From Planctomycetaceae bacterium (GTDB taxonomy: Bacteria > Planctomycetota > Planctomycetia > Planctomycetales > Planctomycetaceae): a stretch of 64,000 bases of DNA. Positions 37,611 through 53,435 of this stretch are shown here, in pieces. The translations under genes were made by a program, and so were the position numbers. The notes under the pieces were generated by a model that was not told the origin of the DNA, made no database searches, and saw nothing but the letters and a program-made list of their open reading frames with translations. How positions within the stretch are numbered: the stretch's first letter is position 1; each line of letters opens with the position of its first letter. The stretch spans positions 124,001-188,000 of the forward strand of contig JAKFWA010000054.1 in the NCBI GenBank assembly GCA_021732995.1. The letters run 5' to 3'.

Positions 37611-38726
37611 TCAGCGCGAACTTTTAGGAGAATTGACAGCCTCATCAGGCCGTTGCTCAAGCTGAAGGAGAGCTGCCTTGCGTTCAACTCCCCACCGGTA
37701 ACCGGCCAGTGAACCGTCGCGGCGCACGACTCGATGGCAGGGGATTGCGATGGCGATCTGGTTCGCTGCACACGCACTGGCAACAGCTCGCACGGCTTCA
37801 GGTTTGCCGAGTTGCTCTGCAAGTTCCGTGTAGGTGGTGGTCTGTCCGCAAGGAATCCGGGTCAGCAGTTTCCACACGCGTTGCTGGAAGGCCGTGCCCT
37901 GAATGTCGAGTGGCAGTTTGAGCCCGGTTGCTGGCAGTTCAATCAGAGCGATAGCTTGAGCGACGTGAGTTTCGAAGCTGGCATCGCCGCCGATGAGCTC
38001 GGCCAGTGAGAACCGATCTTCAAGTTCTTTGACGAGAACTGCGGGATCATCACCGAGCGAGATTGCGCAGACACCAACTTCGGAAGCTGCAACCAAGATC
38101 GAGCCCAGCGAACACTCACCAACCGCGAATCGAATCACAGCGTTCTTTCCTTTGCGGCGCACTTGGGTCGGAGTCATGCCGAGCGTCTTGGTGGATGTTT
38201 CATAAAGACGACTCTGCGAACGAAAGCCCGCATTGAGCGCCGCCGTTGTGATGGTCGTGTTTCCGCCGATCTGATCCCTCAGACGCTGAGCGCGATGCGC
38301 TGTCGCATATTGTTTTGGAGTTAATCCCGTAGCGGCTTTGAAGACGCGATGTAGATGCGAAGGACTGAGCGAAACCGTCTCGGCCAACTCATCCAGTCCA
38401 AGGGTTTCATCTACAGTTTCCAACAGGCGACACGCGCGTGCGACGGCGTCTTGATGCTGCTCGCTCAGTGAACGGTCTTTAGGATGGCAGCGTTTGCAGG
38501 CGCGGAACCCGGCTCGCTCCGCGTCTGACGGCGTGGTGAAGAATCGCACGTGCTCACGCTTTGCCAGTTTGGCCGAGCATGAGGGGCGACAATAGATCCC
38601 CGTCGTCTTGACCGCGTACACAAAGCTGGCGTCGGCGCGCCGATCACGTCCCGCAACTGCCTGCCAGCGATCCTCAGCGGTTTGAAAGCAGGGAGTTAAA
38701 TCGGGCGACTCAGAACTTGTTCTCAC
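37611..38726 (-). CDS. ada: Bifunctional Ada: methylphosphotriester / O6-methylguanine methyltransferase and AraC-type regulator
   Basis: A 371-residue full-length Ada that repairs alkylated DNA and induces its own regulon. The N-terminal domain has zinc cysteines C46, C50, C77 and C80 (TGIYCRPSC, CKRC), the first being the methyl acceptor from phosphotriesters. Residues 85-190 contain two AraC helix-turn-helix motifs (LAETVSLSPSHLHRVFK, TTAALNAGFRSQSRLYE). The C-terminal alkyltransferase ends with IPCHRVV, whose cysteine (about C330) accepts methyl from O6-methylguanine. The start matches the family and no partner gene (AlkA, AlkB) follows in the operon. All catalytic residues are intact. 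Confidence 0.97.
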   Translation of the reverse strand: MRTSSESPDLTPCFQTAEDRWQAVAGRDRRADASFVYAVKTTGIYCRPSCSAKLAKREHVRFFTTPSDAERAGFRACKRCHPKDRSLSEQHQDAVARACRLLETVDETLGLDELAETVSLSPSHLHRVFKAATGLTPKQYATAHRAQRLRDQIGGNTTITTAALNAGFRSQSRLYETSTKTLGMTPTQVRRKGKNAVIRFAVGECSLGSILVAASEVGVCAISLGDDPAVLVKELEDRFSLAELIGGDASFETHVAQAIALIELPATGLKLPLDIQGTAFQQRVWKLLTRIPCGQTTTYTELAEQLGKPEAVRAVASACAANQIAIAIPCHRVVRRDGSLAGYRWGVERKAALLQLEQRPDEAVNSPKSSR

Positions 38727-38865: not shown

Positions 38866-40716
38866 TCAGTCTTTCGCACGACTTGAGGCTGCGTCGTTTG
38901 TTTCCGGCGGCGACCACTTTTCACCAGTGTGCTCAAGCAACGTCAGTTCTCGAGTGGCGTCGAGATCGCGCCAAACCTCGGAATGATGGCTCGACCAGTG
39001 CACGATGAGTTCATCAATCACTTGCGACTGGCCAACGGACAACAGGCAACGAGGATCGTGGCTGGCGGCAAAGCTGCCACCTGATGGAATGTGTGTGGTG
39101 GCTGTCTTGTCGCCACAGCGGTAGCTCAAGCTGATCCCCAGCGGCGTTCGCGCTGCGGATTGCCCAATCAGCCTGAGCCGCACGCTACTGCCGCGACGCT
39201 CGCTGGCGTTATGAACGACCGCCGCAGGACGGATCAGATGGGTGACAAGCAGGTCCGGCAGTCCGTCGTGATCGAGGTCGCTAGTCGCGGCGGCTCGACC
39301 GAGCCACTTGTCTTCGAAGTAATCACCCGCCGTGCGGGATACGTCATGAAACCGTCGACCCTGATCGTTCCAGAACAACTGCTGGGGCATCGCGTATTGA
39401 TGACCGAAACCCAGCGGGGTCAGATCCCAGATATGGCCATTGGCGACGAAGAGATCCGGCCACTGGTCCAGATCAAAATCGGCTCCGATCGTTCCGAAGC
39501 TCAGCAACGGTCGCGATGTCGTATCCAGCCCCATCGCTCCGCTCCGATGAACGAACGCCGTCGGGGCGACATGGTCGTAGTAGTCCTTCAGCGAGTTTTC
39601 AAAGTTAGTGACGAACAGGTCGAACCAGCCGTTGCCGTCGAAGTCAGCGCAGGCGATGCCCATTGAGGATTCAGCACCGCCATCAGCGCCAACAGCTACG
39701 CCGCTGACGACACCTTGCTCAGAAAAACGTAGCCCGCCTTCATTCAGAAATAGAAAATTAGGACTGGTGTCGTTGGCTACGTAAACATCGAGCCGCCGGT
39801 CTCCATTCAGGTCGACGATTTCCACGGCGAGGCCCTTGCCCGGCTCGACAGCTCGAATGCCCGTCGGCTCGCTGACATTGAGAAACGTGCCATCGCTGCG
39901 GTTCTCCCACAGCGTATCGTGCTGGGCGACTCGCCCGATCGGTCCGCAGGAGATCATCACCGGAGGCCGGTGTTCTGTGAGGCAGGGCGGGTCCGTAGAT
40001 GCGTATTCGACGTAGTTCGTGACGTACAAGTCCAGATCGCCGTCGTCGTCCAGATCGGCGAAAGCCGCTCCCGCAGACCAGGAAGCGTCGGCGATGTTTG
40101 CTGAATTACTCATGTGATGAAAGGTGCCGTCTCCAGCGTTCTGCCATAGCTCGATCCGGCCGTAGTAGCAGATGCAGAGATCGGGAAATCCGTCGTTGTC
40201 GAAGTCACCTGCGGCGACTCCCATTCCGAAGCCGCTCACAGCAAGTTGGCTGGGTCGCGAGACGTTCTCGAACCGGATGCCGCCTGCCGAGCTGACATTG
40301 CGTGCGAGCTGATGAACGGCTCCCTTGTTCTCGGCCGGATGCGTGAAGTCGGACCCATTCGTGAGAAACGCGTCGCACCAGCCGTCCTGGTCGTAGTCAA
40401 ACAGTGCGACACCGCCGCCGTTCTGCTCGGTCATGTAGTGCTTGGGGCTGGGGTTGCCGTAGTAGGTGAAATCCAAACCGCTGTTCTTGATCAGTTCAAA
40501 ACGAAAAGGGCGACGTGCGGGTTGATCGTCAATCGGATCAGGCTGAGAGAGCAGGCTTTGAGGTGCACTCGGCAAAGTGGCCGTTGCTGCACTCGGCGGC
40601 GCGTCGGCTGTACTGCAACCAATCAATCCGCTGGCCAGCCAGCCGCAGATGCACATGGCGATTCGATACCCGCCACTGCTGTGCGAGCGACAAGCAGATT
40701 CGAGTGGAGTGCTCAC
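38866..40716 (-). CDS. FG-GAP/VCBS repeat lipoprotein with C-terminal ASPIC/UnbV domain
   Basis: A 616-residue secreted lipoprotein of the CRTAC1-like family. The N-terminal signal ends in a lipobox (LASGLIGC) and the mature protein should be anchored by lipid. Seven calcium-binding FG-GAP blades are visible, each with D-x-D-x-D-G-type loops (DYDQDGWCD, DFDNDGFPD, DLDDDGDLD, DLNGDRRLD, DFDGNGWFD, DFDLDQWPD, DLDHDGLPD). The last 120 residues match the ASPIC/UnbV domain (TPLGISLSYR, IDELIVHWSS). The start GTG 40716 overlaps the stop of the upstream gene as GTGA, so translation is coupled. It closes the minus-strand operon with the SGNH and GT-C/TPR genes. Adhesive or scaffold role inferred. Confidence 0.88.
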   Translation of the reverse strand: MSTPLESACRSHSSGGYRIAMCICGWLASGLIGCSTADAPPSAATATLPSAPQSLLSQPDPIDDQPARRPFRFELIKNSGLDFTYYGNPSPKHYMTEQNGGGVALFDYDQDGWCDAFLTNGSDFTHPAENKGAVHQLARNVSSAGGIRFENVSRPSQLAVSGFGMGVAAGDFDNDGFPDLCICYYGRIELWQNAGDGTFHHMSNSANIADASWSAGAAFADLDDDGDLDLYVTNYVEYASTDPPCLTEHRPPVMISCGPIGRVAQHDTLWENRSDGTFLNVSEPTGIRAVEPGKGLAVEIVDLNGDRRLDVYVANDTSPNFLFLNEGGLRFSEQGVVSGVAVGADGGAESSMGIACADFDGNGWFDLFVTNFENSLKDYYDHVAPTAFVHRSGAMGLDTTSRPLLSFGTIGADFDLDQWPDLFVANGHIWDLTPLGFGHQYAMPQQLFWNDQGRRFHDVSRTAGDYFEDKWLGRAAATSDLDHDGLPDLLVTHLIRPAAVVHNASERRGSSVRLRLIGQSAARTPLGISLSYRCGDKTATTHIPSGGSFAASHDPRCLLSVGQSQVIDELIVHWSSHHSEVWRDLDATRELTLLEHTGEKWSPPETNDAASSRAKD

Positions 40717-41948
40717 AGTGCTTGCTCCATAACGAAATCGGGCTGAGCTTGTCGCAACCACTTGAGGATCGCCTCTGCCGCCATGCGGTGGGCTGTGCCA
40801 TTCGGGTGATGGTCCGTTGCATCGACCCAGAGCTTCGATGTGGATTGGCCAGTAAACGTGGGCGCGAGATCCAGCGCTGGCAGTGACGCCTCGCCAGCCA
40901 TCTTTAGGAGCACATCGTGAACGGGTTGCAGCGGATATTGCTGCTCCAGGCTCTCCAGCAATGGATAAATGACCAGAACAACGCGAGCGTCGGTTCGTTG
41001 AGCTGCCGCAATCATCTGCAGCTTGAGTTGATGCAAGTTGTAGCCGTTCTCGTTCGGACTGTAACAGGACAGATACCAGTTGAGCGTGTCCTGTCGAATG
41101 CGTGCCAGTTCAAAGGGCGTTGCCGTGAGATCCAGCAAACGAGGGCGACCGAGCAGCCAGCCGCGTTGTCGCTCCTGCTCGAGGTAGCGATCACGCAGCA
41201 GGACGAAATCGTTGATGTATTTCTGCTGGCGAGCGAGCGCTGGAGTCAGAGTCACATCGTTGGGGATCAAAACCCAGATCACGCGCCGGCACTCAGCATG
41301 CTGAATCAGCGCATCCATGATGCCCTGTTGTTGCTCGGCGTTGGATCCCACCTGACCGCCGTTAACGCAATCCATCGAGTGTTTGAGCTGCCGCTCCAAC
41401 TGGCGGGGCAGACTGAGCGGCTCAGGAACGCCTTCGCCGAACACGAATGAGTCTCCGACGATGGCGAGGCGCTCGCGATCGTCAGGTTGGCGAGGCGGGT
41501 ATTCGCGATCGCGAATGCCCTTCGACGAATGGCGATATTCGACGCACCAAGGGGTTTCAGACAGTCGGGAGAGCGGTAGCTCCCGGGCTTCGAAGGTGTA
41601 TTCCTGCAGCAGCCAGGAACCCTGAGTGACATCTGGAGTCAGCGAAAGCTCGCTTGAGGGGTTGTCAGCATAGCAGTGATAGAACAGAGGCGATGTTTCA
41701 TCGTTCTTGACCAGTTGCCGCTTGGTGACGAATCGAGCGGGTTCGATGGCCCACGCTCGCACAATGACCTCGGCGATGATCAGCCCCACCAGCAGGCCAG
41801 TCAGCAACGCTCCGAGCTTGAACCACCATGGCCGCGGCGTTTTGCAAGTGGACGCTGGCGCTGTCGACGGTGCGGATTCGCTGGCGAGGTTGTTTGTGAT
41901 TGCTGCGAGTGATGGTTCGGGAGTGATGTTGTTGAGCGCGAGTGTCAT
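40713..41948 (-). CDS. Membrane-anchored SGNH hydrolase / acyltransferase-like protein
   Basis: A 411-residue protein with one N-terminal membrane helix (about 44-66) after a 40-residue polar tail. The exported part has the SGNH blocks: VGDSFVFGEG with D166-S167 as the nucleophile block and DHHPNGTAH with D379 and H381 (the D-x-H-P-N motif). The family includes AlgJ/AlgX-type O-acetyltransferases and cell-surface esterases, and an O-acyl transferase acting on a glycan is a fair guess given the neighbours. It overlaps the FG-GAP gene by 4 bases and lies 21 bases from the GT-C/TPR gene upstream. ATG 41948 is the start. Confidence 0.85.
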   Translation of the reverse strand: MTLALNNITPEPSLAAITNNLASESAPSTAPASTCKTPRPWWFKLGALLTGLLVGLIIAEVIVRAWAIEPARFVTKRQLVKNDETSPLFYHCYADNPSSELSLTPDVTQGSWLLQEYTFEARELPLSRLSETPWCVEYRHSSKGIRDREYPPRQPDDRERLAIVGDSFVFGEGVPEPLSLPRQLERQLKHSMDCVNGGQVGSNAEQQQGIMDALIQHAECRRVIWVLIPNDVTLTPALARQQKYINDFVLLRDRYLEQERQRGWLLGRPRLLDLTATPFELARIRQDTLNWYLSCYSPNENGYNLHQLKLQMIAAAQRTDARVVLVIYPLLESLEQQYPLQPVHDVLLKMAGEASLPALDLAPTFTGQSTSKLWVDATDHHPNGTAHRMAAEAILKWLRQAQPDFVMEQAL

Positions 41949-41969
41949 TCGATTGTGCTGCGTGAAGTT

Positions 41970-44336
41970 CTATCTGGGCGGCGGTGCGGCCCGAACTGTT
42001 CGGGAACGCAAAGCCGACAATTGTTGTTTAACGTCGTTGACTGCGGGTGAGTCGGGAGGAACTAAGGCCAGCGTTTGCTCGAACGCCTGCTTCGCTCGGG
42101 GGAACTCGCCTTGCGCTGCGAGCGCCCGTCCGAGATTGAAGTATCCCGCAGCGAACGTCGGGTCGAGCTCCAGTGCTGCTTGAAACGCACTTTCTGCTTC
42201 AGTCCATTGCTGCTGCTCCAGGGCCGAGTTGCCTTGCGAATTGTGAGCGACAACCAACTCCCTGGTCACTGCCGCTTGCAAAGTGGAATTTTTGTGCCGC
42301 ACTGCCAGAGCACGAGCTTCGCTCAAGGCGGAAACTGACTCTTTGAGTCGGCCGACACGAGCGAGCATCAAACCATACTGGAATCGGATCTCTGGACGTT
42401 GTGGATGGTCCGTCAGCAGAGTCTCGATTCCATCAAGGGCCTCGTCGTGTTGGCCGCGATTTTGAAGCTGCAATGCAAGGTTCACCTTTGCTTGCCAATA
42501 GGTCGGATCCGCTTGTACGGCTCGCGCGAACAACTCGATTGCTGTCTGCGAACGATTCGTTCTGGCGTACCATTCGCCGACTTCAGTAAGAACTTGAGGG
42601 CTCTTTGGAGCTAATTCTAACGATCGGTCGAATGCAGCGTCGGCCGCTGCGTGATCACCGTTCGCCAGGTTTTGAGCCAGCGCCAGGTGAATGTCGACGT
42701 TGTCAGGTTCAATTGCTGCTCCCTGCCGAAGTGCATCAATCGCGTCCGCAGTTTGGCCGTTGGCTCTCAGGCAGACTGCGAGGTTCAACCACGCTTGCGG
42801 ATATCGCGGCCTCAACTGCAGCACATGGCGAAGCTGACGGATCGCACGGGGGTAGTCACCAGACTTCGCGAAGAGACTGGCTTGATTGTGCAGTGCGATC
42901 CAGCTGTGAGGATTCACTTCCAACGCTTGAGCATACAGAGTCGCGCTGTCTCGCCAGATCCCAGCCGCGTTCCACGCAATCAGCGAAAGTACTGCCAGTC
43001 CGAAGGTGAACGCACGGCGAAAGTTCAACGAGTTCCATCGGTCCCAGGCAACTGCCGCTGCCAGAGCTGGTCCCAGCATTGCAACGTAGATGTACCGGTC
43101 AGCGACCGTCGAGATCTCCTGAAAGCCGAAAGACACAATACCCAGTACGGGTGCCAGTCCCGCGACAAACCAGAGAGCTGCCATCCAGATACGCCGCTCC
43201 GCCTTGATCCACCACAGGCCCGGAAGCAGCATCAGGGGAATAGCCAGCAGTCCATAGTCCAAACCGTTTTGCCACAGGGATCGCGGGCTGCGGCCATAGT
43301 CTATGCTGAGATTCAGCGGCCAGCAGAACTTCACGAGGTACCATCCCAAGGAATCAAGTGCGATGGCGGGACGGAACCAGAGCGGGACGGCGGTTGTGCT
43401 CTCACCCGAGGGCTGGAGCGTGCGAGTGACCAAAACGATTGCCAGCGTCGCAATCCCGAAGAGAGCCATCGTGACTGCTGCCTGCTTCCACGAACGTCGC
43501 AGCCAGATGAGGTCATGGCACACCACGATCAGTGCGATCGCGGCGATTGACGGTTTCGAGAGCAGCGCCAGTAACAGGGCGATCAATGCACCCGCTGACC
43601 AATTGAACTTGCGAGCGGTGGGCTCCTGCGATCTCAAGTGACACCAAAGGGCGGTCAGCCCGAGGCTTGTCGCCAACAGGCCTCGGGTTTCGCTCGTCCA
43701 GGCAACGCTCTCAACCTGCAGTGGATGTACGGCGAACACTATCGCTCCCGCGAGCGCGCTTCCCCACCTCACGCCGACGCGCGTCATCAGTACGAACACC
43801 AACACGCAGTTCAACCAGTGCAGGCCCAGGCTGGCGGACCGGAAGATCGGCGTGGACTCGATTGCGCCGCTGGCGTCGCGAGAAAACAGCAGGTCAGTTA
43901 ACGCGACTTCGGCGGCAAATAAGCTGTAGGAGACGGGTATGTACAAGTTCTCGTAAGGGGCTTGCCAAAACTTAGACAGGCTGTGCCAGGTGAGCGGATT
44001 GAAGGCTGGGTTCGCGGTGATGTGGATATCATCATCCCACGTCAGCAACTGGTGAGTCAGCGTGCGGCCGAAGACCGTCAGAATAAGTGTGGCTAGGACC
44101 AGCACTGAGATGGCGAATTTTCTGAGAGAGTCGCTTTGATCTTTCGACGCAGCATTTTCAGGCTCAGGGAGCACGGTCTGAACTTTGCTCGGATTCCCGG
44201 CAGTATCTGACGTCGTCTTGTCACAGGTCTGGGATGCAATGTCCTCGGAAAGCACATCAACAGCTTCGCAGAATCCTTCTCGCAAACTTCGCTGGGTAGT
44301 GTTGGCGGCGGTTGGACTTTGCGTTCCCGCAGGCAT
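41970..44336 (-). CDS. Multi-pass GT-C/TMTC-like glycosyltransferase with C-terminal TPR repeats
   Basis: A 788-residue membrane protein. About ten hydrophobic helices cover residues 72-460; the first extracytoplasmic loop carries WDDDIHI (D101-D103) and NLYIPVSY, which is the GT-C acidic motif of the O-mannosyltransferase TMTC/PMT type. Residues 470-770 hold about seven TPRs (NPHSWIALHNQASLFAKSGD, PRYPQAWLNLAVCLRANGQ). Such proteins transfer a sugar from a lipid carrier onto exported proteins or glycans. The first 75 residues overlap the divergent gene at 44239 (to base 44336), so a later GTG (44255 or 44174) may be the true start. It heads the operon with the SGNH and FG-GAP genes. Confidence 0.85.
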   Translation of the reverse strand: MPAGTQSPTAANTTQRSLREGFCEAVDVLSEDIASQTCDKTTSDTAGNPSKVQTVLPEPENAASKDQSDSLRKFAISVLVLATLILTVFGRTLTHQLLTWDDDIHITANPAFNPLTWHSLSKFWQAPYENLYIPVSYSLFAAEVALTDLLFSRDASGAIESTPIFRSASLGLHWLNCVLVFVLMTRVGVRWGSALAGAIVFAVHPLQVESVAWTSETRGLLATSLGLTALWCHLRSQEPTARKFNWSAGALIALLLALLSKPSIAAIALIVVCHDLIWLRRSWKQAAVTMALFGIATLAIVLVTRTLQPSGESTTAVPLWFRPAIALDSLGWYLVKFCWPLNLSIDYGRSPRSLWQNGLDYGLLAIPLMLLPGLWWIKAERRIWMAALWFVAGLAPVLGIVSFGFQEISTVADRYIYVAMLGPALAAAVAWDRWNSLNFRRAFTFGLAVLSLIAWNAAGIWRDSATLYAQALEVNPHSWIALHNQASLFAKSGDYPRAIRQLRHVLQLRPRYPQAWLNLAVCLRANGQTADAIDALRQGAAIEPDNVDIHLALAQNLANGDHAAADAAFDRSLELAPKSPQVLTEVGEWYARTNRSQTAIELFARAVQADPTYWQAKVNLALQLQNRGQHDEALDGIETLLTDHPQRPEIRFQYGLMLARVGRLKESVSALSEARALAVRHKNSTLQAAVTRELVVAHNSQGNSALEQQQWTEAESAFQAALELDPTFAAGYFNLGRALAAQGEFPRAKQAFEQTLALVPPDSPAVNDVKQQLSALRSRTVRAAPPPR

Positions 44337-45432
44337 GGTCTGGACTTTCGGGAGCAGAACTCCCTCGTTGCGCGACGTGGAAATGAGTTGGCATCTTAGT
44401 GATCCCGCCTCTGCACGGCAGATGGCTCAGCAAATTGTGAACCGGGATGCATCGAATGGAGCAGGATGGCTGTGGTTGGGACGATCCTGCGAGAAGCTCC
44501 GCGACTTTGACGCGGCCGCCGAGGCCTATAGCCGGGCGAGTGCGATCCCGGAATCCGGCGCTGAGGCGGTAGGCCGTCGGGGTTTCTGCCTGCTGAACGC
44601 CGGTCGCTTGGGCGAAGCAGAGGACGCTTTCCACACGGCCTTGAAGCGTAACCCGTCAGATGAAGCCGTGCAGACTGAGCTACAGTGGCTGCTGTTCAAT
44701 CAGCTTCGCGAACGGGAACTGGAAGTCTTTCTGGAAGGCCTGTTGGATCGCGAGCCGAACAAGTTTCGGATCTTGTATCACATCCTCTACAGCAGTCAGC
44801 GCCGTCCCAATCCGCGCGAGGCTGTGGGACGATTGGAGCAAGTTGAGCAACTCAAGCCGGGACAACCCCAAGTTCAATTGGCGCTGGGACATTGCTACTG
44901 GAAGCTTGGCGATATCAACAAGGCGACGCGATTTCTGGAAGCTGCGCTGCAGCAGCGACCCGCTGATGTAGAAACCGCGCTGCTCGTCACCGAGTTTTAT
45001 ATCGAGCAAGACAACCTTGATCTGGCGCAATCGCTGATTGAGCCCTTGAAGTTCCAGCTTGTTATGGACGATCGCTGGTGGTGGCTGCTGGCACAACTTC
45101 AACACCGCCAGGCGAAGACCGACGACGCTATCGACGCACTCAAAGAAGCGATCCGTTTGCGTCCGAGTGAAGTTCGATATCTGCAGACAATTGCCACCTG
45201 GTATCAAGCGAAAAACCTCACGATGGAATCCAGGGATTACCATCGCGAGGTTCAATTGCTTCGCAAGGTCAACGAAGAACTGTACGTAATTGTGAGTCGA
45301 GGTGATCTGGATAAGCCGAACTCGACAACCTTTAAAATACTTGGCGAATTATTCGCACGCGCGAAACGCCCGAAATTGAAACAAGCTTGGGAACAATTGG
45401 CGGCACCGAGCAACCTGACAGAATCTCGATAG
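44239..45432 (+). CDS. Membrane-anchored TPR protein
   Basis: A 397-residue protein with a short polar tail, one membrane helix (about 18-38, WVVLAAVGLCVPAGMVWTF) and then at least eight TPR-like helical pairs (GWLWLGRSCEKLRDFDAA, VQLALGHCYWKLGDINKA, WWWLLAQLQHRQAKTDDA). TPRs dock other proteins; this one lies divergent to the TPR/GT-C gene and is probably its partner. ATG 44239 is preferred because it keeps the membrane helix; ATG 44335 would lose it. The N-terminal 98 bases overlap the 5' end of the divergent gene if both starts are right. It converges with the DUF1559 gene, 30 bases between the stops. Confidence 0.85.
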   Translation: MSSESTSTASQNPSRKLRWVVLAAVGLCVPAGMVWTFGSRTPSLRDVEMSWHLSDPASARQMAQQIVNRDASNGAGWLWLGRSCEKLRDFDAAAEAYSRASAIPESGAEAVGRRGFCLLNAGRLGEAEDAFHTALKRNPSDEAVQTELQWLLFNQLRERELEVFLEGLLDREPNKFRILYHILYSSQRRPNPREAVGRLEQVEQLKPGQPQVQLALGHCYWKLGDINKATRFLEAALQQRPADVETALLVTEFYIEQDNLDLAQSLIEPLKFQLVMDDRWWWLLAQLQHRQAKTDDAIDALKEAIRLRPSEVRYLQTIATWYQAKNLTMESRDYHREVQLLRKVNEELYVIVSRGDLDKPNSTTFKILGELFARAKRPKLKQAWEQLAAPSNLTESR

Positions 45433-45462: not shown

Positions 45463-46446
45463 TTACTCGCCCATCACGTTCCCGTCAATTACGTTGCCGT
45501 CTTCGATATTGCCCAAGTAAGTCCAGTTCGGGCCGTGGATCGAGTCTGACACGAAGCGAACCGCACCGTCCATCAAAGCGATGTGCACGCCTCCCGAATG
45601 CCAGCTGCGAGCGATTCCGGTGTTTGAACCGCTGAAGCTCAGAGAGTTGCAGCGATTCGGTCCAGAGATACTCAGTGTTGTGAAGGATGTGCCACCAATC
45701 GCAGGCTGTGCCCAACCAAACTTGGCTTGATTGTCACCTGCCCCGGTACACGCTTTGGTATCCTGTGCGAACTCGGAGAAGCACATGGTGTTTGACATGC
45801 CGTCTGTAATCATCTTGAGGCGAACCCAAGGTGAAATGAGTCCTGTGCCGGCTGAGTTTTCCAGACCCTGCTTTTCAGCGAACACAGTGTTAAAGCTGCC
45901 GTGCTGGTTGCAGAATCCGTAGGGATGATCTGATCCCGTGCCGGGGTAATTGTGTACGGCGAACGCCATGGTAGAACCGTTATCTGACGCGGTCCATGTG
46001 GCAAATTCTGTTTTGCCGCTGTCGCTTGGGCAAAGGTACGACGAAATTCTCGTCTTCACCGCATTGGCGTGCGACGAATGGTCATATCGCAGATTCAAGT
46101 TCATCTGATCGTACAAGTTCTGCTGATCGATAAACGGTAGCAACATGGTGTGCACAGTGTGCATCGTCCATGGCCCAGGGTGCGATGCATGCGCGGCAAC
46201 ATTTCCATAGTTACCGCAGCAGCAGGGGGTTGCCAGTGGCGACATGGTGGCTCGGGGCAAATACTCGCCGAACTGCTCGGTATAGTTCGCCAGTGCGAGT
46301 CCAAGCTGCTTGAGATTGTTCTTGCATTGGGACCGTCGGGCGGATTCGCGTGCTTGCTGAACTGCGGGCAGCAGCAACGCAACCAATACCGCAATGATTG
46401 CGATAACCACGAGTAATTCGATCAGTGTAAACGCTCGCCTGCGCAT
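45463..46446 (-). CDS. DUF1559 prepilin-like protein, copy 1
   Basis: A 327-residue DUF1559 protein. The N-terminus is a type IV prepilin / pseudopilin signal ([16 protein letters not shown]), to be cut after the basic leader by a prepilin peptidase, and the hydrophobic helix continues to [16 protein letters not shown]. The C-terminal part has the DUF1559 signature [19 protein letters not shown] (H-x9-DG type). DUF1559 proteins are numerous in planctomycetes and presumably build extracellular fibres or pili. ATG 46446 begins the leader; the ATG 6 codons upstream is less likely. A lipoprotein gene lies directly upstream; the second such module is at 52449-54004. Confidence 0.93.
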
Positions 46447-46510
46447 TTTTGACTCTCTAAGCATGAGGGTAGTATGTCGGAACGTGTCGTCAGAACTGGT
46501 GAAGAAAAAG

Positions 46511-46957
46511 CTATCTGCTGGTCAGGTTGAATGAAAAATCGCGCTGGCTTTCTTGTACCTCCGCGGTCAGTCCGCTGGCCTCTGAGCCATACTTGACGTA
46601 AGGGCCAGAATCGAAGGCGAGAATCTGCTGCGGATCTTCTTGTTTTATTTCCGTGACGCGTACCAGATAATTTGCTGGATATACCCCTGGCAGCTTGTAG
46701 TCGCCGTTCTCGTCCGTTTTGGCCATGAAGTCGCGGTCCTTGGCACCACCTCCTGGGGTGGTACGCGTCAGTAGGACCTGCACTCCAGCAGACGGTTTGC
46801 CATCCATGGTGACTTTGCCGGAGATCTCAACTGGCTTACCAAGGTCGGGTCCGCCTTTGCCACATCCGGCGAGTGTGATAGGGGCGAGCAACAGCGCTGT
46901 GGCTAGAAGTTTCGCTGGGGTTCGGGGGCCTGTGAGTGAGTTCCGAACAGAGGTCAT
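46511..46957 (-). CDS. Lipoprotein with transthyretin-like/carboxypeptidase-regulatory fold
   Basis: A 148-residue lipoprotein. The signal peptide ends in LAGC (lipobox) and the mature protein begins [11 protein letters not shown]. The rest is a beta-sandwich with the pattern [21 protein letters not shown]...[23 protein letters not shown], characteristic of carboxypeptidase-regulatory or transthyretin-like domains that bind proteins or sugars at the cell surface. AAGGGA precedes ATG 46957. It is the first gene of a lipoprotein-DUF1559 pair; the same two families recur at 52449-54004 in the opposite order. It probably supports assembly or anchoring of the DUF1559 protein. Confidence 0.85.
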
Positions 46958-47396
46958 ATAATTCCCTTCCAATCCGAGGTGATACTAGGACCGGTCGCGG
47001 CCATGACTGTTTCCGCGACTTCTACCACCTGTAGCCTTCAAGGCTTCGGCGTTCCCTGGATTGCACGGCGAGGCAATGGATGTGCCGCCCGATCGGGCGC
47101 AACCCATGAAAAGGGGCTGACACGGGGTAAATCTCAGGTCCAAGAGGCCTCGGCGAAATCAACCGACTGAAGAAGGGCGAACATTTGGTGGCTCGAGCCC
47201 TTCAATCGCGGTAAGCCGTACGCGAGGTGCCGCCGACATCACGAGCAGGTATGCGCTATTCTCGCGCAATGTTTCGCTCAACGCGGTGGCGTATTTACGC
47301 CGGGATTCAGGGCGAATTCACTTTCGCGAAGTCGCGCGGCGCGCATTCAGATGAAGCGCGCTGGCGCGGAGATGCGGCTCACGATCGTCTTGGTCG
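46958..47396. other. 439-base intergenic region
   Basis: It separates the lipoprotein gene from the 3' end of the DUF1015 gene, both on the minus strand. It must hold the promoter of the lipoprotein-DUF1559 pair. Only a short 6-bp hairpin around GGCGTATTTACGCC (near 47286-47299) is visible; I see no gene in it. Confidence 0.4.
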
Positions 47397-52140: not shown

Positions 52141-52448
52141 GCCGGAGACCTCCAATTTGTATGGCAGGCGGCATCAGACCGCGCGCACTAGCGAAACGCA
52201 AACTAAGACAGGAACGCGATAACGAGGCTGCTTGACTAAGGGGGCGCCGAGAGAATCGGGGAAAACGGAAAACATCGTCACGCGAACACGTGGCTGGTGC
52301 GGAGCGGAATCGTGCTGGTGACAGCAGGGGCCGAGCAGTTAGGCTCGACACATCGCAGCTTGGCGATGTGTGCTGTTTGAAGAAGATGCACGAAATTGTT
52401 CGTCAATTTGCGATTGAGATCGCCCTTGTCCATCAGAGGAGCTGGCAG
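52141..52448. promoter_or_regulatory. Divergent region with an inverted repeat
   Basis: 308 bases separate the sulfatase (minus) from the second DUF1559 gene (plus). A perfect 9-bp inverted repeat ACACATCGC/GCGATGTGT with a 6-base centre lies at 52348-52371, 77 bases before the DUF1559 start. It could be an operator or an mRNA hairpin; no other gene is seen. Confidence 0.5.
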
Positions 52449-53435
52449 ATGCAGCGTGGAGTGCGGGTGAAGCGGCGTGGATTTACCTTGATCGAGTTGC
52501 TGGTCGTTATCGCGATTATCGCGGTGCTGGTGGCGTTGCTGCTGCCGGCGGTGCAGCAGGCCCGCGAGTCAGCGCGACGCACTCAGTGCCGCAACAACCT
52601 CAAGCAGATCGGGCTGGCGATCTTTAATTATGAAGAGATGACCGGTTGCTTTCCGGCCTCGGCTCTTCCGTCGCGAGGACCGGGAACCTGGGCGTGGGGG
52701 CCTGCCTGGGCGGTCGCAGTGATGACTTTCATGGACCAGGAGGGGCTCCGTGGTGCTTACGATTTTCACGGTGTGAATAGCATTCACACGGGGCTCGTAT
52801 ATACGGGCTACAACGTCGATAACGGTCGTCTGTTGAGTGGTCTCCGGATGAGCTGGATGTTCTGCCCTTCGTCACCAGTCAACAAAATGGGGCTGCTGGG
52901 CCAAACCACGCCAGCCAATGGAGTGCAATCGATTACCTACACCGCCGTGACTGGGGCGAGTAATCACTCGTCGACAGTGAACTACGACGCCAACACGAAC
53001 ATTCATGCGGCAACGGGCCGACAATCAACCGGTGGCGTTCTGATTCCTTTTCGGTGCTTGAAGATGCGTGACGTGACGGACGGAACGTCATCAACCATCC
53101 TGGTTGGCGAGCAATCCGACTTCTGCGTGCGGTCTGATGGGTCGCTCGTGGACTGCCGCAGCGATCATGGCCACGGCTTCCCGATGGGGGTTGCGTTCAC
53201 CGACACACGATACTTCAACAGCACAACGGTTCGGCATCCCGTGAATACGAAGTCTTACACGGCCACTGGGGTTGTCTTCTACGGAGCGAATAACCCCATT
53301 CAGTCGGCGCACCATGGTGGTGCTCACGTCTTGCTCGGCGATGGCTCGGTGCGATTTCTCAGCGAGTCTTTGAACTTGCAGACGTTCTACGATCTCAGCA
53401 ACCGAGACGACTCGAACCCGATAGGCGACTTCTGA
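52449..53435 (+). CDS. DUF1559 prepilin-like protein, copy 2
   Basis: A 328-residue paralogue of the protein at 45463. The prepilin leader ([15 protein letters not shown]) and the following helix have nearly the same amino acids as copy 1, but with many synonymous base differences. The middle diverges, and the C-terminus has [20 protein letters not shown], the DUF1559 H-x-DG signature. Cysteines are scattered. GAGGA 8 bases upstream supports ATG 52449. The lipoprotein gene at 53546 follows in the same direction, forming a DUF1559-lipoprotein pair like the one at 45463-46957 but in reverse order. Confidence 0.92.

Follow-up and report, generated by a model that had tools for sequence, protein, structure and literature searches.

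A putative planctomycete surface module of a prepilin-motif DUF1559 protein, a membrane-anchored TPR protein and an FG-GAP/UnbV propeller, with a GT-C/SGNH gene pair at the same locus

A common origin has been argued for the calcium-binding blades of integrins and of PilY1, with cartilage acidic protein named as a carrier (PMC3123361; this and the other papers cited here are represented by excerpts). In planctomycetes, the DUF1559 (SBP_bac_10) proteins form an expanded family, the largest paralog group of P. limnophila with 68 copies (PMC10632474), whose role is unsettled in the literature: PMC2754498 and PMC4807772 call the proteins solute-binding, whereas PMC8567305 describes the N_methyl motif as the signal of pilin proteins of type II secretion systems and type IV pili. 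According to the latter source, most proteins combining N_methyl with SBP_bac_10 were found in detergent-soluble fractions. We found no report linking DUF1559/SBP_bac_10 with UnbV/ASPIC, CRTAC1, FG-GAP or tetratricopeptide repeat (TPR) families in planctomycetes; PMC3909097, as excerpted, mentions TPR and UnbV domains, separately. Here we describe a locus that brings these families together, located in a stretch of 64,000 nucleotides (the window; contig JAKFWA010000054.1, positions 124,001 to 188,000, assembly GCA_021732995.1) from a Planctomycetaceae bacterium whose genome comprises 9.39 Mb in 135 contigs.

A sequence-only reading of the window had combined four genes, encoding a TMTC-like glycosyltransferase, an SGNH protein, an FG-GAP/UnbV lipoprotein and a membrane-anchored TPR protein, into one system that glycosylates and acylates a surface protein. 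The four open reading frames (ORFs) are indeed present at 38866-45432 (Table 1), but their homologs mostly scatter in a search of 119 genomes; the unit that recurs consists of the TPR, propeller and DUF1559 genes, the last of which was omitted from the original four-gene set. We therefore favor the view, with a probability of roughly 0.55, that the locus is a conserved surface module made up of a DUF1559 protein, a membrane-anchored TPR protein and an FG-GAP/UnbV propeller, into which a GT-C/SGNH pair was inserted in this genome.

The propeller protein matches the Pfam families FG-GAP_3 (123.6 bits), FG-GAP (48.1 bits) and UnbV_ASPIC (28.1 bits), all above cut-off, which together with the lipobox LIGC, assigned by reading, confirms its earlier identification as an FG-GAP/UnbV lipoprotein. 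It contains seven Dx[DN]xDG-type motifs, and CRTAC1 is a relative of solved structure (9etn, E 2.6e-9). Each of the four proteins was searched against 119 genomes including that of the window, and matches were found in 86 genomes for the propeller, 25 for the SGNH protein and 13 for the TPR protein (all at E 1e-10), and in 55 for the GT-C part (E 1e-6). Propeller regions were then taken down the similarity ranking, as the best part of a longer list, and so the resulting sample of 81 genes at 57 loci in 35 genomes leans to closer relatives. It includes the window's own genome (loci L110 and L249; L and G numbers are our handles for loci and genomes) but not the window locus, and three of the 81 ORFs are shorter than 450 residues.

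In this sample, the propeller is fused to TPRs in 29 cases, has a TPR gene within 500 bp in 40 and has neither in 12. Of the 40 adjacent TPR genes, one represents half of a disrupted fusion gene, and the remaining 39 share the strand of their propeller gene in 38 cases. Within their first 120 residues, 27 of the 29 fusions and 31 of the 39 adjacent TPR proteins contain a hydrophobic stretch. Viewed from the TPR side, among 15 relatives of the window TPR protein outside the window, 13 are encoded next to a propeller gene and another forms a fusion with one, while the remaining one (L136 in G015) has no propeller in its 3.0-kb locus, which extends only 476 bases past the TPR gene on one side. 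A phylum-wide draw of 28 propeller loci gave a TPR neighbor in 16, a fusion in two and neither in ten; a TPR neighbor was also found in 16 of the 25 loci outside the window's family. We thus interpret the TPR and propeller genes as the split version of a common single TPR-propeller protein. Since the two correspond to one chain in many relatives, nearly all of which have a hydrophobic N-terminal stretch, the proteins probably act at the same outer membrane face and touch each other. The window arrangement is best read as a pair parted by the GT-C and SGNH genes, with the TPR gene inverted; at L095, which carries the closest relative of the window's propeller, the TPR gene is also turned round and convergent with the propeller gene.

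Two other candidate partners of the propeller were considered and rejected. A multihaem cytochrome was found in one of 35 scanned close neighbors, and the sole candidate for linkage to other GT-C proteins, a PMT_2 neighbor of 620 residues located 98 bases from the propeller gene at L096, is weak (20.2 bits, cut-off 26.1). As a separate observation, locus L178 (2519-17679) has a back-to-back pair of TPR-propeller fusions; genes for a GT-C/TPR protein, a YfhO-AlgX fusion and a family-2 glycosyltransferase follow one of them, and a multihaem cytochrome gene follows the other.

The third member of the proposed module matches DUF1559 (PF07596, 150.6 bits) and N_methyl (31.8 bits), both above cut-offs. 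A DUF1559 gene is found within 1 kb, on either strand, for 49 of the 81 propeller genes but for only 4 of 82 GT-C control genes (distance was measured from the TPR-propeller unit in the former and from the gene itself in the latter); counted by locus, this amounts to 37 of 57, in 28 of 35 genomes (Fisher 7e-15 against the GT-C controls). The controls include a fragment of the window's own gene (L134) and the propeller-near loci L118, L170, L178 and L186, and one of the four linked controls is L170. Close same-strand neighbors were compared as well. Near propeller genes, and setting aside TPR and propeller genes themselves, 35 of 41 such ORFs were scanned (six short or overlapping ones left out); 12 of the 35 are DUF1559 and 11 have the prepilin N_methyl motif. 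Among 53 such neighbors of GT-C genes, which remain of 65 after removal of adjoining GT-C genes, one repeat and the window's own, DUF1559 is listed once. As excerpted, PMC8567305 reports that genes with N_methyl and SBP_bac_10 often have flanking genes that encode type-I or type-II signal peptides, which fits this linkage. In the window's genome, which has about 70 DUF1559 genes, six of ten UnbV genes lie about 1 kb or less from one of these (chance about 2e-9); without the window locus, it is five of nine (9e-8).

The linked DUF1559 proteins are also related to one another. On a tree of 98 DUF1559 proteins, the 51 linked ones require 14 label changes compared to 32.8 after shuffling, with none of 500 shuffles as low; the tree includes near-copies, and rows from short loci are possibly mislabelled as unlinked. 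The window's DUF1559 protein groups (Shimodaira-Hasegawa-like approximate likelihood-ratio test, SH-aLRT, 96) with DUF1559 proteins whose genes adjoin relatives of the window propeller in G038, G032 and G072. Propeller and DUF1559 distance matrices, compared over 43 pairs drawn from 29 genomes, show a correlation of 0.358. When partners are shuffled only within their own genomes (11 genomes have more than one pair), the mean is 0.254, and 2 of 5000 shuffles are as high as the observed correlation. For only 16 of the 43 pairs do both members have their nearest relatives, in another genome, in one and the same pair. Taken together, these comparisons indicate that in the window's class a dedicated DUF1559 gene is inherited with the TPR-propeller pair. 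A second DUF1559 gene in the window (52290-53435, plus strand) groups with propeller-linked ones (SH-aLRT 97), with no FG-GAP gene seen nearby; it is perhaps an orphaned partner.

This link is specific to the window's class, where all 59 genomes searched contain DUF1559. In the phylum sample, DUF1559 is found at 1 of 28 propeller loci, and that locus (G028) is from the window's own family. Some PF07596 match is present in 50 of 99 genomes of this sample, and among the matches listed the strong full-length ones all come from five genomes of the same family; the others listed are weaker and cover the profile partially, mostly its start, except for a near-full-length match in G165 (57 bits).

Several observations weigh against the proposed module. 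DUF1559 is missing within 1 kb at 20 of the 57 loci, L095 included; for seven of these, the available sequence stops short of 1 kb on one side of the unit, and for 13 it does not. Since the pair exists without DUF1559 outside the window's class, the general function of TPR-propeller proteins does not need it. Most of the roughly 70 DUF1559 genes in the window's genome are unlinked, and the window's own TPR and DUF1559 genes point toward each other and are not in one transcript. DUF1559 proteins are labelled as solute-binding, not pilin-like, in excerpts of PMC2754498 and PMC4807772, and the PilC/PilY1 family (PF05567, accession as excerpted from PMC3123361) is not among the three Pfam families listed for the propeller up to E 0.1. 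Finally, GT-C neighbors of propeller genes recur somewhat above chance, which leaves room for the view taken by the sequence-only reading.

The 788-residue protein was modelled with AlphaFold (mean predicted local distance difference test score, pLDDT, 90.7; predicted template-modelling score 0.85; 48 sequences). Its membrane part, within model residues 4-414, resembles the oligosaccharyltransferase subunits STT3/AglB at Z scores of about 20 in the VIA-align list: yeast 8agb_A (Z 20.6, root-mean-square deviation (rmsd) 4.4 over 317), archaeal 3waj (Z 20.0, rmsd 4.4 over 316) and 7oci_F (Z 19.9, rmsd 4.9 over 331). The remainder resembles TPR proteins in structure comparison, and the best 50 Foldseek rows for this model are TPR or other helical-repeat proteins. 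Pfam TPR matches were obtained for both this and the 397-residue protein. The acidic pair in the first outer loop is conserved among the 48 aligned sequences (D101 in 47, D102 in all), as are K261 (48, followed by proline in the window protein), D413 (47), R414 (43) and Y417 (43), to be compared with KE(T/Q)xxT and ERxxY of TMTCs. The conserved acidic pair, lysine and D-R-x-x-Y partly resemble the motif scheme given for TMTCs in the excerpts of PMC7801869. By reading, the M2 histidine/lysine and the M4 glutamate of TMTCs are missing. DUF1736 (PF08409) is absent from the families matched by the membrane part (window 42972-44156) up to E 10. The model and the conserved sites thus indicate that the protein is a member of the GT-C glycosyltransferase superfamily and works like a GT-C enzyme, and we do not file it as TMTC or GT105. 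The TMTC-like glycosyltransferase proposed before therefore stands as to its GT-C fold, its acidic, lysine and arginine sites and its TPRs, while TMTC/GT105 membership is not adopted, DUF1736 being unmatched up to E 10. Because of the GT-C fold and the conserved sites, the protein is more than a TPR transport protein; a pure transport protein of this kind, lacking GT-C catalytic residues, is ruled out for this gene.

Among the other 118 genomes, the top GT-C matches come from other families of the class, with 40% identity in G108. In another family, genomes G084 and G080 have three GT-C/TPR genes nearly in tandem (L116 6054-12614 and L117 6351-13932, respectively), and these are among the closest relatives of the window GT-C domain. 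Multi-pass proteins directly adjoin GT-C/TPR genes at L119 (6886-8037) and L122 (5267-6532); they are probably the two Acyl_transf_3/OpgC members found in the pooled scan of GT-C neighbors, in which case GT-C plus acyltransferase would be a recurrent pairing.

The residues G165, D166, S167, N230, D231, D379 and H381 are invariant in 24 aligned SGNH sequences, that of the window included; N230 is the block-III asparagine. With the GDS serine, the asparagine and DxH present, the protein is assigned, on its residues, to the SGNH hydrolase/acyltransferase superfamily. Its model is fair (pLDDT 67.3) and matches CgnD (8a2n; Z 19.7, rmsd 4.7 over 220) and a GDSL-like lipase (1vjg; Z 17.1, rmsd 3.2 over 184); the closest folds listed are generic SGNH/GDSL esterases, carbohydrate esterases among them. 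The sole Pfam matches up to E 10 are Lipase_GDSL_2 (24.3 bits, cut-off 32.9) and DUF6473 (11.1 bits), without the AlgX family (PF16822), and structures of AlgX/AlgJ are absent from the best 50 fold matches listed, which does not exclude such a likeness. The proposed AlgJ/AlgX type is therefore upheld in its active-site residues and lacks the corresponding family match. Apart from the window's own copy, a near-full-length match was found only in G055 (28%), others aligning over about two-thirds of the length or less. The protein is probably an ester-making or ester-cutting enzyme, acyltransferase and esterase not being separated by sequence or fold.

Gene neighborhoods show how loosely this pair is tied to the propeller. 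Among 79 distinct GT-C genes in large fetched regions (fewer than all GT-C matches), the window included, five have a propeller within 6 kb and five an SGNH gene. Without the window, a propeller is found within 6 kb of 4 of 78, against 1.27 expected from the density of UnbV matches in the 95 genomes having any (P 0.04), and SGNH likewise of 4 of 78. Removal of L170, where the FG-GAP gene has no UnbV match and lies outside this density, leaves 3 of 78 (P 0.14). Close, same-strand GT-C/propeller neighbors number 2 of 78 against 0.16 expected (P 0.011). Conversely, a GT-C/TPR gene within 6 kb was seen for none of the 81 propeller genes collected through propeller similarity, where the available sequence covered 6 kb to either side for 30 of them and at least 1.5 kb for 67. 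The gene order of the window is seen at none of the 78 other GT-C genes. Because GT-C genes are so rarely near a propeller, we reject a conserved four-gene module; the GT-C and SGNH genes are better described, from their neighborhoods, as an accessory pair, with looser GT-C/propeller neighborhoods recurring little above chance. Outside the window's class, in G147 (L305 1-3084), GT-C and propeller lipoprotein genes diverge with overlapping starts.

What the accessory pair acts on can be viewed in two other ways. It is quite possible, although we would stop short of preferring it, that the substrate of the pair is an exported polysaccharide or lipid-linked glycan and that its genes merely share a locus with the propeller module. 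GT-C/TPR and SGNH genes are again neighbors in G040 (L114) and on a 4.4-kb contig of G055 (L112), in both cases with no propeller visible; another contig of the window's genome (L113) places an SGNH relative next to a YfhO-type membrane protein; and the affinity of the SGNH fold to generic, including carbohydrate, esterases points in the same direction. Such independence is harder to reconcile with the GTGA overlap, which in this genome links translation of the SGNH gene to that of the propeller gene, and with the looser GT-C/propeller neighborhoods seen elsewhere. The latter bring up the view of the sequence-only reading, in which the system is dedicated to the FG-GAP lipoprotein; as substrate or scaffold, the lipoprotein would be glycosylated by the GT-C enzyme and acylated by the SGNH protein, with help from the TPR anchor. 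Tight spacing and the GTGA overlap in the window speak for it, as do four arrays: on one strand, a TPR-propeller fusion, GT-C/TPR, YfhO-AlgX fusion and family-2 glycosyltransferase in G037 (L178; gaps of 74, 175 and 21 bases), propeller, TPR and GT-C in G034 (L186; gaps of 9 and 47 bases), and GT-C, DUF1559, FG-GAP and TPR genes in G069 (L170); and, in an 11-kb part of G055 (L118), a GT-C gene, two SGNH genes and a TPR-propeller fusion, GT-C and SGNH being neighbors here too. The 53 scanned close same-strand GT-C neighbors also include three Lipase_GDSL_2, two AlgX and two Acyl_transf_3 members. Given the counts of 0 of 81 and 4 of 78 (3 of 78 minus L170), and a window order that recurs at none of the 78, we consider such dedication doubtful.

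Two further explanations concern the module itself. The module might be real and yet serve solute or ligand capture, DUF1559 binding solutes and the TPR-propeller acting as a surface receptor without a pilus-like assembly. The Pfam name SBP_bac_10, the solute-binding label in the excerpts of PMC2754498 and PMC4807772 and the salt and temperature responses of DUF1559 genes in PMC2754498 agree with it; the prepilin N_methyl motif in the window's DUF1559 and in 11 of the 35 scanned neighbors, a pilin signal per PMC8567305, makes it unlikely. That the DUF1559 link reflects mere abundance (68 copies in P. limnophila, PMC10632474; about 70 in the window's genome) or a genomic habit of clustering surface-protein genes is very improbable, with linkage rates far above density in the same genomes, linked DUF1559s clustering on the tree and distance matrices agreeing within genomes.

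Under the preferred reading of a DUF1559-TPR-propeller module, the DUF1559 protein would be processed and then assembled as a pilin-like subunit, and the membrane-anchored TPR protein would serve as an adaptor that holds or delivers the propeller. By analogy to the PilY1 propeller on type IV pili, the propeller may be a calcium-dependent tip, cap or receptor of the DUF1559 assembly. The GT-C enzyme probably transfers sugar from a polyprenyl carrier onto an exported acceptor, to which the SGNH protein would add, or from which it would remove, an acyl group; candidate acceptors are the propeller, the pilin-like protein or a glycan. More tentatively, genomes of this class may have several parallel PilY1-like machines, each with a dedicated DUF1559 and its own TPR-held propeller, and some with their own GT-C/SGNH enzymes decorating the pilin or the propeller. 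If true, part of the group's most expanded unexplained protein family would thereby gain partners and a role. A cognate, co-inherited calcium propeller and its TPR partner make DUF1559 function directly testable, and their linkage suggests a pairing of pilin-like subunits with calcium propellers in a second lineage besides PilY1.

Genes of the locus are listed in Table 1; ORFs were derived by a simple script without trained gene prediction. As described earlier, the GT-C/TPR and SGNH genes are separated by 21 bases on the minus strand, and the SGNH stop shares the four bases GTGA with the FG-GAP/UnbV gene, whose GTG start lies at 40716. This start is preceded by GGAG and followed by the lipobox, although the longest frame begins upstream, at 40761. 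The TPR gene diverges from the GT-C gene, as had been noted, but not from a common point as annotated: the GT-C ATG at 44336 would overlap the divergent TPR gene, which begins with ATG at 44239, by 98 bases, and so the true GT-C start is probably later, e.g. GTG 44174. The DUF1559 gene lies 30 bases past the end of the TPR gene, with the carboxypeptidase-regulatory-like gene upstream of it on the same strand. An Ada-type methyltransferase/regulator gene downstream of the propeller gene (37611-38726, minus strand) looks unrelated.

Table 1. Genes of the locus, with window coordinates and the basis of each assignment.
Feature	Coordinates	Strand	Basis or remark
FG-GAP/UnbV (CRTAC1-like) lipoprotein, core member	38866..40716	-	Pfam, calcium-type motifs, CRTAC1 similarity
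Membrane-anchored SGNH protein, 411 residues, accessory member	40713..41948	-	Invariant active-site residues, fold matches
GT-C glycosyltransferase with C-terminal TPRs, 788 residues, accessory member	41970..44336	-	AlphaFold, conserved sites
Membrane-anchored TPR protein, 397 residues, one anchor, core member	44239..45432	+	Pfam TPR, gene context of relatives
DUF1559 (SBP_bac_10) protein with prepilin-type N_methyl motif	45463..46464	-	Core in this class; outside the four-gene stretch 38866-45432
Small protein with carboxypeptidase-regulatory-like domain, lipoprotein-like by reading	46511..46972	-	Pfam CarboxypepD_reg, 34.3 bits (cut-off 32.3)

Compared to described systems, the accessory genes resemble known enzymes in part. 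With the TMTC O-mannosyltransferases (GT105; excerpts of PMC7801869 and PMC6801728), the GT-C protein shares a membrane part followed by C-terminal TPRs and a conserved first-loop DD, lysine and R..Y site; it differs by the lack of a DUF1736 match and, by reading, of the M2 histidine/lysine and M4 glutamate. The SGNH protein has the fold, the serine and DxH residues and the membrane anchor of AlgX/AlgJ-type acetyltransferases, but no AlgX Pfam match, and its nearest listed folds are generic esterases. Within the expanded planctomycete DUF1559/SBP_bac_10 family (PMC8567305, PMC10632474, PMC2754498, PMC4807772), the window gene is a member with N_methyl, whereas the excerpts of these papers name no TPR-propeller partner. 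From PilY1 (excerpts of PMC3123361), the window propeller differs in having no listed PilC/PilY1 match, in being membrane-anchored or a lipoprotein and in its TPR partner or fusion; the two share a propeller with Dx[DN]xDG calcium motifs, and here the propeller gene is linked to a gene with a prepilin motif. CRTAC1/ASPIC-UnbV proteins (9etn) have FG-GAP repeats and a UnbV domain in common with it, with detectable sequence similarity, while here the protein is a bacterial lipoprotein with TPR and DUF1559 partners.

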